Below are positions 3,724-35,901 of a DNA stretch of 41,257 nt, piece by piece. How positions within the stretch are numbered: the first letter of the stretch is position 1; each line of letters opens with the position of its first letter. The notes below the pieces were generated by a model. It searched no databases, had not been told where the DNA came from, and saw only the letters and a program-made list of their open reading frames with translations. The stretch lies in the NCBI GenBank assembly GCA_021796115.1, contig JAJYOP010000015.1, forward strand, positions 1-41,257, given 5' to 3'. Source of the stretch: a bacterium. GTDB lineage: Bacteria; Omnitrophota; Gorgyraeia; Duberdicusellales; 4484-171. The translations under genes and the position numbers were made by a program.

Positions 3724-3990
3724 TTAAAGTATGGCTTTTAGATCCTTTGAGGCTCTGAAAGCTATTTTTTTCTTCGCAGGAATCTGAATTGATTCGCCTG
3801 TCTTTGGGTTTCTTCCCATTCTGGCCTTTGTTTCTTTTACTTTAAATGTACCGAAACCGGAAATGGCTACCGGATCTTTTTTCTTAAGAGATCCTCTAAT
3901 CGCATCAAAGACTGATTCTACTGCTGTCTGGGCTTCTTTCTTGGTGCAGGTGTTCTTTGAGACAGCTTCGATTAATTCTGCCTTGTTCAT
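3724..3990 (-). CDS. HU-family DNA-binding protein
   Basis: This is an 88-residue histone-like protein that bends and compacts DNA as a dimer. It has the full-length HU/IHF fold: N-terminal helices (MNKAELIEAVS), the GFGTFKV strand, and the DNA-binding arm with the family signature RMGRNPKTGE followed by IQIPAKK. The start is fixed by a perfect Shine-Dalgarno (AGGAGGTGA on the minus strand, 3995-4003). The gene has its own strong promoter about 200 bases upstream, so its message carries a long leader that contains the whole composite structured element at 4005-4174. It ends against a bidirectional terminator. Confidence 0.96.
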   Translation of the reverse strand: MNKAELIEAVSKNTCTKKEAQTAVESVFDAIRGSLKKKDPVAISGFGTFKVKETKARMGRNPKTGESIQIPAKKKIAFRASKDLKAIL

Positions 3991-4004: not shown

Positions 4005-4174
4005 CTTTAATGAGCTAGCATTTTTTAAGCGAAGCGCAAAAAATGCATTAGCGAATTACCCCCACACCAATTGTAAAGCCCTATATATTTGACCCAACAA
4101 TTGGTGTGGGGGTCAAATTCAGCTACGCAACCTTTCTGCGCCTACGGCTTGAAAATTTGCTGCTTCATTTGAAA
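4005..4174 (-). promoter_or_regulatory. Composite structured leader element, complete copy A (HU leader)
   Basis: Read in the HU direction it begins TTTCAAATGA and holds a first hairpin (4121-4164), then GAATTTGACCCC entering a perfect 15-bp inverted repeat (4098-4112 with 4059-4073), then GTAATTC and a second hairpin (4038-4052 with 4014-4026, 13 pairs, two-base bulge). It ends TCATTAAA just before the Shine-Dalgarno. The first half matches copy C (31526-31703) closely. The first hairpin is also related in inverted orientation to the second hairpins of copies B and D. Role unknown: it could be an RNA leader or a palindromic DNA repeat. Seen directly; no family recognised. Confidence 0.75.
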
Positions 4175-15161: not shown

Positions 15162-15164
15162 TAA

Positions 15165-15357
15165 ATGAGGCCAATCCCCACACCAACTTTTGTGTTGGCA
15201 GTTTGCGGGGATAAAAAAGTAATTGTTAGCAGGATGTTTTTATAAAAAAGTAAAATTGTTTCAAAAGTTGGTGTGGGGGTTGATTCGCACTAGTATTTTT
15301 TCTGCGCCATGCCTGTTCTTTGAGCTGTCTAGGCTTGAAAAAATACTGTGCTCATTA
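15165..15357 (+). promoter_or_regulatory. Composite structured element, partial copy B (NIL gene leader)
   Basis: It begins AAATGAGGCC, then a perfect 17-bp inverted repeat CCCCACACCAAC... (15176-15192 with 15262-15278), then TTGATTC and the second hairpin (15287-15302 with 15337-15351, one bulge). It ends TCATT joined to AAGGAGG. The first hairpin present in copies A and C is missing. The inverted repeat shares CCCCACACCAA with copy A. The loop holds a direct repeat ATAAAAAAGTAA (15211 and 15242). Confidence 0.7.
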
Positions 15358-15368
15358 AGGAGGCGGTT

Positions 15369-15587
15369 ATGAAATTGGAAGTCGAATTGAATATCCCCTT
15401 GGAATACAAAGATGAACCTTTCTTTTACTACATAATCAAGAATTTCAACCTCGTAGTACGCATAGTTGAGGCATCATTTTCGACAAGCATGGGCTGGGCG
15501 ATAGTAAGTTTTGAGGGCAAAGAAAAAGAAATCAACAAATTGCTCGCATTTTTTAAAGAAAAAAACATCGAAGTCACACGTAAATGA
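15369..15587 (+). CDS. Small NIL-domain (ACT-like) protein
   Basis: A 72-residue stand-alone ferredoxin-like beta-alpha-beta domain with the NIL pattern: an opening VELNIPLEYKDEPFFYYI, a central VRIVEASFSTSMGWAIVSFEG and a final EKNIEVTRK. NIL domains usually sit at the end of MetN methionine-transporter ATPases or beside ferredoxin domains, where they bind amino-acid-like ligands; here it stands alone. The start at 15369 is set by AAGGAGG (15357-15363); an in-frame GTG at 15348 lies inside the hairpin and is not favoured. It is preceded by structured element B. Confidence 0.75.
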   Translation: MKLEVELNIPLEYKDEPFFYYIIKNFNLVVRIVEASFSTSMGWAIVSFEGKEKEINKLLAFFKEKNIEVTRK

Positions 15588-31494: not shown

Positions 31495-31523
31495 TTGACA
31501 AAATGATACTAATATGGTATCAT
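31495..31523 (+). promoter_or_regulatory. Sigma70 promoter with embedded palindromic operator for the microprotein-Rrf2-Hcp unit
   Basis: TTGACA (31495-31500), 17 bases, TATCAT (31518-31523). A perfect 9-base inverted repeat AAATGATAC/GTATCATTT (31501-31509 and 31517-31525, 7-base spacer) fills the region between and over the -10. This is the right place and shape for a repressor site; the Rrf2-type regulator encoded 380 bases downstream is the natural candidate. The transcript would begin near 31530, at the first base of the structured leader. Confidence 0.75.
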
Positions 31524-31525
31524 TT

Positions 31526-31703
31526 CAAATGAGGCAACAGCTTTTCAAACCTCTAGTGGTGCAGAAAAGCTGTGTAGCCGAATTTGACCCCGTTCTTTTA
31601 CTTCTAATAATTTATTAAGGTAAAAGAGCGGGGTTCAATTCCGACAAACAATTTATGATCGTCACGACGGGCGTCGTGACTCCATAAATTGTGTCGTCAT
31701 TGA
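31526..31703 (+). promoter_or_regulatory. Composite structured leader element, complete copy C
   Basis: In order: CAAATGAGG; first hairpin (31537-31546 with 31564-31573, 10 perfect pairs); GAATTTGACCCC and core inverted repeat (31584-31603 with 31617-31638); CAATTC; second hairpin (31643-31657 with 31683-31695, topped by an 8-bp GTCACGAC/GTCGTGAC stem, GGGC loop); TCATT next to GAAGGAGG. It occupies the whole leader from the likely transcription start to the ribosome binding site. Sequence and order match copy A. Confidence 0.78.
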
Positions 31704-31714
31704 AGGAGGTGCCT

Positions 31715-31795
31715 ATGGCAAGGAATATAATTCGTTGGCTAATTCGTCCAGTCGTGCATTGCAAGGAAGGCTGCCAAAGAGTGTCCTTGGCATGA
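31715..31795 (+). CDS. 26-residue cysteine-containing microprotein
   Basis: Reads MARNIIRWLIRPVVH then CKEGCQRVSLA and stop. A perfect Shine-Dalgarno (AAGGAGGTG, 31703-31711) precedes the ATG. It carries two cysteines (C16, C20) spaced C-x3-C, a basic amphipathic N-terminus and no transmembrane span long enough to be sure. It lies between the promoter/leader and the Rrf2 regulator, in the position of a leader peptide or of a small metal/NO-sensing partner. I do not recognise a family. Confidence 0.6.
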   Translation: MARNIIRWLIRPVVHCKEGCQRVSLA

Positions 31796-34792: not shown

Positions 34793-34948
34793 AAACCCCA
34801 CTCGCTCACTTTGTTCGTCCCAAGCTAAAGCTTGGGACAATGCGACCAAGTCTTTTTACTTCGCAAAAAGACAGTCTCATTGCTTGGAGTAATTCACACT
34901 ATCGTTTTTTCTGCGCGCGGTGCGCTTGAAAAAATGATGTGTTCATCG
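34793..34948 (+). promoter_or_regulatory. Composite structured element, partial copy D (DUF4190 leader)
   Basis: After a 10-bp perfect palindrome GTCCCAAGCT/AGCTTGGGAC (34827-34848) comes a diverged core (CCAAG...AAAAAGAC...CTTGG), then AGTAATTC and the second hairpin (34895-34911 with 34928-34941). The hairpin carries TTTTTTCTGCGC and GCGCTTGAAAAAA, as in copy B. It ends TTCAT next to GGGAGG. The first hairpin is not recognisable. Confidence 0.6.
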
Positions 34949-34959
34949 GGAGGTGGATT

Positions 34960-35592
34960 ATGGGTGATTTAGCGCAGCGCAAAACGCACGGTTTGGCGAT
35001 AGCCAGTTTGGTGCTCGGATGTTTTTTTATAATTCCCCTGTTGGGTTTTGTTTTGGGCCTTATCGCAGCCATTCTTGGCATAATCGCTCTGGTGTCAATT
35101 TCCAATAAAAAAGATACTTATAAAGGCAACGCCATGGCCATTACCGGCATAGTGCTTGGAGTTATAGGAACAATAATCATGCCTTTCATCGCGCTTTTGG
35201 CGGCGATAGCCATACCCAATCTTTTAAGAGCACGCATTTCGGCGCAAGAATCAGCAACAGCTGCTGCTATGCAAACAATAGTTAGTGCTGAAATATCATA
35301 TCGCGCAGCTCACTCTTCATACGCCAGTTTAAACACTTTAGCTAACGAAGTCCCTCCTTATATAGACCAACAACTTGGTAGCGGTTCAAGGGATGGTTAT
35401 AATTTTTCACTGAAAGATTTTAGCGATTCAGGTTTTTATGTTGTTGCCACTCCTATTGAAAACCAATACGTTGGACGTACATTTTATATTGACGAAAAGG
35501 GTGTATTGTGCCGCACAGACAGCCACGAAACTCAAAGTGTAAGCGGCCGCCAAACCGAAGGTTGTCCGGCTGGGTTTTCAGAAGTAAAATAA
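34960..35592 (+). CDS. DUF4190 / pseudopilin-like fusion membrane protein
   Basis: 210 residues from ATG 34960 (GGGAGG at 34948-34953). Residues about 10-75 follow the DUF4190 pattern (LAIASLVLGCFFIIPLLGFV, a second hydrophobic helix, GNAMAITGIVLGVIG). The second part reads LLAAIAIPNLLRARISAQES, then AAMQTIVSAEISYRAAHSSY, the helix-to-loop pattern of type IV pilins and pseudopilins. It has no prepilin peptidase site (GF[ST]LIE), so the pilin helix is an internal membrane segment. A C-terminal globular part has two cysteines. Fusion seen in sequence; role unknown. Confidence 0.72.
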   Translation: MGDLAQRKTHGLAIASLVLGCFFIIPLLGFVLGLIAAILGIIALVSISNKKDTYKGNAMAITGIVLGVIGTIIMPFIALLAAIAIPNLLRARISAQESATAAAMQTIVSAEISYRAAHSSYASLNTLANEVPPYIDQQLGSGSRDGYNFSLKDFSDSGFYVVATPIENQYVGRTFYIDEKGVLCRTDSHETQSVSGRQTEGCPAGFSEVK

Positions 35593-35782: not shown

Positions 35783-35901
35783 TTACCCGGATTAACTTCC
35801 GGATAACCTGCTGAAAAAGGCAAACTCCGAGTAATCGGAGGACGCAAAGCTAAAGGGTCCAGATAAACCTGGACAGCCTGGCCGCCAGATGAGGTGGGTA
35901 A
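35783..35901 (+). promoter_or_regulatory. Cyclic di-GMP-I (GEMM-I) riboswitch
   Basis: Conserved core blocks of the class are present in order: GGCAAAC (35819-35825), P2 stem CTCCGA/TCGGAG closed by the GNRA tetraloop GTAA (35831-35834), GACGCAAAGC (35841-35850), AAAGGGTCC, a P3 stem GTCCAG/CTGGAC (35857-35874), then ACAGCCTGGCCGCC. P1 is ACCTGCTG with CAGATGAGGT, extended by TTACCC/GGGTAA. The base that selects c-di-GMP over cGAMP appears to be G, but I place it by alignment from memory. Two terminators follow, so it most likely controls transcription of the RHH-like and TIGR04073-type genes. Confidence 0.9.

Follow-up and report, generated by a model that had tools for sequence, protein, structure and literature searches.

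The element in the window

The window, that is, the whole stretch of 41,257 nucleotides analysed here, comes from a 1.7-Mb genome of the Omnitrophota (G000). It contains four copies of a palindromic element, all of which precede a Shine-Dalgarno (SD) sequence: copy A lies upstream of the HU gene, copy B upstream of a gene starting at 15369, copy C upstream of the gene of a 26-codon microprotein, and copy D upstream of a DUF4190 gene starting at 34960. Copies A and C have in common a layout of three hairpins between promoter and SD. This composite layout, which the original prediction described for these two units, is indeed present at both places, and R2, a covariance model for the end hairpin that leaves out the flanking bases, has five matches in the window: two in A (left and right end), one at the left end of C, and one each in B and D. 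Note that the training set of R2 took in the left ends of C and A, and that the other three matches are independent finds.

The microprotein (MARNIIRWLIRPVVHCKEGCQRVSLA; 31715-31795, + strand) is encoded between the genes of rubrerythrin and an Rrf2 regulator and is conserved in two genomes of the same genus, G001 and G002 (MARNFIYRLIRPVVHCKEGC...). Its sigma-70-like host promoter, TTGACA...TATGGT (31495-31520, +), with the palindrome ATGATAC...GTATCAT, is conserved in relatives. This palindrome, ATGATACTAATATGGTATCAT, recurs in many of them and may be an Rrf2 operator.

Copy C as a whole (31528-31701, +) is a non-autonomous insert of 174 nt running from AATGAG to GTCATT, its boundaries being set by R2 and by analogy with the empty site of another copy, C12, described below. 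It is preceded by the host dinucleotide CA (31526-31527, +), which is complementary to the inner TG at 31585-31586, in keeping with a covariation between flank and inner bases found over 171 ends. The left-end hairpin, called hairpin 1 originally, occupies 31528-31584 (+; R2 73.5 bits, E-value 1.2e-15; -27.6 kcal/mol with its flank). In the fold, the core left arm CCCCGTTCTTTTAC (31588-31601, +) pairs with the core right arm GTAAAAGAGCGGGG (31620-31633, +); such arms surround a GIY-YIG gene in full-length copies. The right-end hairpin (31637-31701, +; originally hairpin 2; -28.8 kcal/mol), which is inverted relative to the left end, was assigned from sequence and fold, R2 making no call on it as it is too diverged. 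The host SD GAAGGAGG and the ATG of the microprotein (31702-31717, +) follow, and are kept in G001 and G002, which do not have the element. When the segment 31524-31710 is folded, the predicted structure consists of three separate hairpins and leaves the SD free (-85.3 kcal/mol).

Copy A (4009-4169, - strand; 161 nt), upstream of the HU start codon at 3990, is delimited by relatives without the element and by R2 matches at both ends. Its left-end hairpin lies at 4116-4169 (-; matched as 4169-4116, 67.1 bits, E-value 4.5e-14) and its right-end hairpin at 4009-4057 (-; 44.0 bits, 2.3e-8); the latter is inverted, so that the R2 match is on the + strand. Between them (4059-4112, -) are the core arms CCCCCACACCAATTG and CAATTGGTGTGGGGG. 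The segment 4000-4175 (-) contains the same three modules as copy C; the unconstrained minimum-energy fold nests them, and modules folded singly are like those of copy C.

Copy B (15164-15356, +), as read from the sequence, has core arms (CCCCACACCAACTTTTG...) and a deleted left-end hairpin. Its right-end hairpin (15282-15356, +; R2 43.6 bits, E-value 2.9e-8) is followed by the SD AAGGAGG (15357-15363, +) and the ATG at 15369. In copy D, a right-end hairpin recognised by sequence and R2 (34891-34947, +; 38.1 bits, 6.7e-7) is directly followed by the SD GGGAGG (34948-34953, +) and then by the ATG at 34960 of the gene assigned to DUF4190 by Pfam.

Read from the outside inward, both ends have the form AATGA-stem-loop-stem-GAATT and are mutually inverted. 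Hairpins 1 and 2 are therefore the same kind of structure, namely the left and right ends of an element in inverted orientation, whose limits are AATGA and TCATT; the promoter and the SD belong to the host. The symmetry is plainest in a further copy of the same genome, C22, where AATGAGGCAGC...GTAGCCGAATT on the left is mirrored on the right by AATGAGCACAACATT...AATGTTAGTGCGAATT. Among 33 ends, 87.8% of pairs are standard and 15 of 22 pairs show double-sided changes, with a covariation score of 0.315 against 0.126 for shuffled sets and at most 0.082 for slid registers, although part of the excess over the shuffles may reflect kinship among the copies. The original statement that the stems are kept where the sequence changes is borne out by these counts.

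The original prediction recognised no known family in the element, and this agrees with Rfam: a scan of the window gave no leader family over threshold at the element, and a permissive scan of eight copies likewise gave only below-threshold matches there. The only match in the window is an unrelated c-di-GMP-I-GGC riboswitch (35810-35890, +; over the Rfam threshold), which is located upstream of small genes without Pfam match.

Dispersal and empty sites

As a DNA query, copy C gives 21 matches in the genome, of which the weakest is no better than chance. The covariance-model search of this genome and its relatives that the original prediction had proposed detects at least 53 end hairpins in G000, where every candidate scored was a match, so the element is dispersed and not a product of chance. 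The same model finds 48 ends in G001, 33 in G027, and 31 each in G014 and G033, and at least one end in 59 of the 97 relatives searched. Solo ends or short forms account for many of the copies, and these are linked to the gene-carrying form described below by structure only. In a scan of 84,980 species genomes, the exact left-end pattern occurs on ten contigs, all from Candidatus Omnitrophota and none from other groups. Carriage by phages or plasmids was considered and rejected, since phage and plasmid records gave no DNA match to the element.

The orthologous loci of close relatives were compared. The HU orthologues of G001 (97% identical) and G002 (95%) have the same promoter, CTTGACAAG...TATACAATATTGAAAGTGGTTGAAAATATTAAC, and an SD, without the element. 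Of the remaining family members read, nearly all likewise show a promoter and an SD upstream of HU and no element. The exception is G017, from another genus, where this position upstream of HU is taken by a different copy, a solo end (L093). At the microprotein locus, G001 and G002 keep the promoter, the SD and the microprotein, and the element is again absent; G002 has another palindrome at this locus. This comparison shows that copies A and C are lineage-specific insertions between a conserved promoter and a conserved SD.

For base-level boundaries, the joined flanks of six G000 insertions were used as queries. Straight-through matches were obtained in G001 at the C12 and C13 loci and in G002 at the C22 (PEP carboxykinase) locus. 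At C12, the joined flanks of G000, GTCA followed by AAAGGAGG, are equal in length to GCGAAAAGGAGG of G001; similarly, the junction of AACAAGTCA with AAAGGAGG equals AACAGGCGAAAAGGAGG of G001 in length. The equal lengths set the insert at this locus as AATGA...TCATT, with no target duplication, a boundary derived from this one clean empty site of a capped copy (i.e., one whose end hairpins are recognisable by the model or by eye), the other sites aligning too loosely for base-level reading. In particular, the C22 junction aligns with gaps, and the pfkA and C11 response regulator loci match on one side only at the junction; all three indicate absence at best.

An outer end is followed within a few bases by an SD, a start codon and an open frame in 30 of 169 ends, compared with 23 of 1690 control positions (1.4%); the control positions include coding sequence, so that the excess over intergenic DNA is smaller than thirteenfold. 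This adjacency is found for 9 of 36 right-type ends and 5 of 64 left-type ends (Fisher p 0.03), 69 ends being untypable. As had been predicted, the element is a structured unit found repeatedly between a promoter and a ribosome binding site, although most copies lie away from an SD. Copies situated mainly away from ribosome binding sites, in the manner of a dispersed palindrome, had been named in advance as evidence against a regulatory leader, and this is largely what is found.

The GIY-YIG gene of full-length copies

In relatives, GIY-YIG genes are located within the core inverted repeats. Capped copies with an intact GIY-YIG gene occur in G027, G059, G074, G008, G089 and G065, with ends called by the model in G027, G074, G065 and G008. 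The protein of the G027 copy has a GIY-YIG domain (PF01541; 3.7e-15, 56.4 bits against a Pfam cut-off of 22.6), which places it in the GIY-YIG superfamily, and its nearest solved structure is the UPF0213 protein BH0048 (1ZG2, 1.4e-7), followed by 1YWL (0.0027). In full-length copies, the two arms of the core inverted repeat lie on either side of this gene. For example, nearly the same arms as in copy A surround intact genes in G059 and G089, where the copy A arm CCCCCACACCAATT recurs. Moreover, ATATATAGGGCTTTAC in the loop of copy A resembles the LYIGFT-coding stretch of the C22 gene in a by-eye comparison with L026, made without a significance test. Since nearly the same arms enclose intact genes and copy A has this putative remnant in its loop, A and C are most plausibly derivatives without the gene.

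In G000 itself, the core arms of C22 and C42 surround a GIY-YIG frame with in-frame stops, i.e., pseudogenes. These are the only known capped GIY-YIG copies of this genome; any mobilisation in it would therefore be old or would act in trans. Both GIY-YIG copies of G000 (L038 and L039) share the same in-frame TAA (AGT TAA AAA GAC), which suggests either spread after inactivation or a common dead parent.

A second form has the core arms and the gene but not the hairpins. In many genomes, such genes are found at start codons, where ATGAA or GTGAA flanks them on either side (C13 in G000; L155, L160, L163, L164, L165, L168, L170 and L180). At several of these loci the first ATGAA/GTGAA opens the GIY-YIG frame, and the displaced host gene restarts at the second, behind the purine-rich right arm, with a new GTG or ATG; from the sequence, the hairpin-less gene apparently uses the SD and start codon of the host gene. 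At the empty site of C13, G001 has plain TTTTATGAAAATAGC, so the hairpin-less form repeats its target, which the capped form at C12 does not, and they may differ in how they move. Related GIY-YIG genes are also found in or beside tRNA genes (L167, L169, L175 and L178), in some cases with pieces of the tRNA repeated on both sides.

Proposed mobilisation and comparison with known systems

The foot of the end hairpin provides a further regularity. In 156 of 171 ends (85 in shuffled sets, z 13.7), the host base beside AAT is complementary to the one that follows the inner ATT, and the second host base pairs with its inner partner in 135 of 171 (90 in shuffled sets, z 10.4). These ends were mostly fetched with a model, R1, that includes three flank pairs and hence has a slight bias to pairing; a first set of 36 ends was collected with patterns blind to the flank. 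The third position is weakly above the shuffles (57 versus 44, z 3.0), position 6 is slightly so (z 3.1) and is taken as noise, and other registers are not raised. The excess is much smaller, but still present, when near-identical ends are compared within their groups (z 2.9 and 3.6). Furthermore, 32 of 160 pairs of near-identical ends carry different yet matched dinucleotides, so the matching is not simply inherited. Correction of quasi-palindromes by template switching is disfavoured as the cause, given that the same stem keeps its conserved GA/GA and A/GTA mismatches uncorrected. The matched dinucleotides may reflect guide-directed choice of the target or inward copying of the flank, which are indistinguishable here.

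Taking these observations together, we consider that A and C are probably gene-less and non-autonomous representatives of a mobile element that has palindromic ends and, when complete, a GIY-YIG gene whose product presumably mobilises it. The complete element would consist of a left terminal hairpin, a core arm, the GIY-YIG gene, a second core arm and a right terminal hairpin, with AATGA and TCATT as its termini. The small GIY-YIG protein would nick or cut at the feet of the hairpins, both in the copy that encodes it and, in trans, in copies without the gene. Pairing would serve to read the foot (host NN-AAT-GA / GA-ATT-N'N'), and target choice or end recognition would depend on it. Insertion 5' of an SD would be tolerated if the hairpins fold away from the SD and translation goes on. 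The expression of HU or the microprotein may be affected secondarily, but such regulation would be incidental. A more specific proposal, which we put forward only tentatively, is that the element represents a minimal class in which a GIY-YIG protein of ~85 residues takes the place of an HUH or DDE transposase and moves the palindrome-ended element via single-stranded DNA. At each end, the host dinucleotide would pair with a copy-variable dinucleotide of the element, and the insertions would be aimed at translation-initiation sites (immediately 5' of SDs for the capped form, at the start codon for the hairpin-less form).

Numbers of end hairpins follow numbers of related GIY-YIG genes, with rho 0.63 within the family (p 3e-5) and 0.32 over the 97 genomes, in genomes that are related and incomplete, with GIY-YIG counts that include hairpin-less forms and end counts that stop at 53 per genome. 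Nearly all the genomes compared are draft MAGs. This correlation is supportive, not proof. It also bears on an alternative that we regard as unlikely, in which GIY-YIG homing elements of start codons (core arms plus gene) invaded pre-existing terminal palindromes that had spread otherwise. The hairpin-less elements at start codons in many genomes, the empty site of C13 and the presence of the core arm CCCCCACACCAATT both with and without end hairpins would suit such two layers; apart from the correlation, they are opposed by the co-occurrence of ends and core arms, in register, in capped copies of several genera.

It is improbable, too, that copies A and C, having arrived as mobile copies, now regulate the genes downstream. 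The SD left free behind a stable hairpin in copy C and the enrichment of ends at SDs could be so understood, but the enrichment is equally explained by targeting or tolerance, and orthologous retention is seen in no relative examined, giving no sign of selection.

Mobilisation in trans of REP- or MITE-like palindromes by an HUH (Y1) transposase, after the manner of IS200/IS605 and TnpA-REP, with the GIY-YIG genes as later passengers, appears quite improbable. The hairpin ends, the lack of target duplication at the clean site, the guide-like pairing, a GTAGC motif at the hairpin foot and the single Y1 gene of G000 are all compatible with it. However, we rejected it as end counts do not track Y1 counts (rho -0.15 and 0.10 for the same two sets, not significant): genomes with 4-7 Y1 genes have no ends, and no Y1 was detected in G001, G033, G017, G002 and G091 (48, 31, 15, 14 and 12 ends), within the limits set by MAG incompleteness. 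In addition, no element read has a Y1 gene inside. Finally, a conserved cis-regulatory RNA controlling HU and the microprotein (a riboswitch, thermosensor or protein-binding leader), the original interpretation, draws on the position between promoter and SD, the strong fold and covariation, the SDs behind all four window copies and the solo copy upstream of HU in G017, but is very improbable given orthologous HU and microprotein loci without the element in the closest relatives, dozens of copies per genome beside unrelated genes and mostly away from SDs, the lack of an Rfam match at threshold and the nuclease gene within full copies.

If the reading as a GIY-YIG mobile element is right, small stand-alone GIY-YIG proteins, which are common in these uncultured bacteria, drive a large family of mobile palindromes, and their gene-less copies give rise to "structured leaders", which can be taken for riboswitches in computational screens. 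Insertion before SDs or at start codons would then be an elegant means of spreading through genomes dense with genes while leaving these functional. The covariation between flank and inner bases makes the mechanism of target recognition directly testable with one small protein and oligonucleotides.

Several known systems resemble the element in part. A group I intron with a GIY-YIG endonuclease was rejected: Rfam gave no group I intron match in the window or in eight copies, and the inserts measure no more than 161 nt (A) and 174 nt (C). GA-cis (RF02987) has a similar two-hairpin layout, but its best match among several short copies is 31.9 bits against a threshold of 34.7, the search also matches in 4 of 14 control genomes, and Rfam lists it as an sRNA; with scores below threshold, it was rejected as the family of the element. 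These sub-threshold matches coincide with short copies (L005 797-884 and others), and GA-cis may itself be a dispersed mobile palindrome. A literature search on Ssn, GA-cis and GIY-YIG elements in Omnitrophota found nothing relevant among the papers accessible to it.

Among GIY-YIG proteins, the closest solved relatives (1ZG2 and 1YWL, UPF0213) were deposited as hypothetical, under entry names without a hint of mobile elements. Free-standing homing endonucleases of the T4 Seg/MobE type resemble the present case in that a small GIY-YIG nuclease is the only gene and positions are intergenic. To our knowledge, they have no terminal hairpins, core inverted repeats or multi-copy gene-less derivatives, all of which the present element has. 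The Ssn family of Neisseria, small GIY-YIG single-strand nucleases linked to the dispersed NTS repeats, likewise combines a stand-alone small protein with a dispersed repeat, with single-stranded DNA as the substrate of Ssn; we know of no description of NTS repeats as ends of a nuclease-carrying element.

The IS200/IS605 elements and the TnpA-REP/REP system share with the present element small size, hairpin ends (15 of 22 pairs covary here) and high-copy gene-less derivatives. IS200/IS605 elements insert without target duplication, as does the present element at one site (C12). In IS608, guide tetranucleotides pair with the cleavage site (PMC5934647, PMC8266576). A short sequence of the present element pairs with the flank, over 2-3 nt and in a statistical sense, but the geometry differs: the IS608 guide lies 5' of the hairpin, whereas here the pairing continues the stem through a conserved GA/GA step, and the paired bases vary between copies along with the flank. 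Membership of IS200/IS605 fails on the enzyme, which is an HUH Y1 protein there and a GIY-YIG protein here, while there may still be a resemblance in the mode of action. The element is best classed as a variant of the small palindromic mobile elements, with GIY-YIG as the probable mobilising enzyme.
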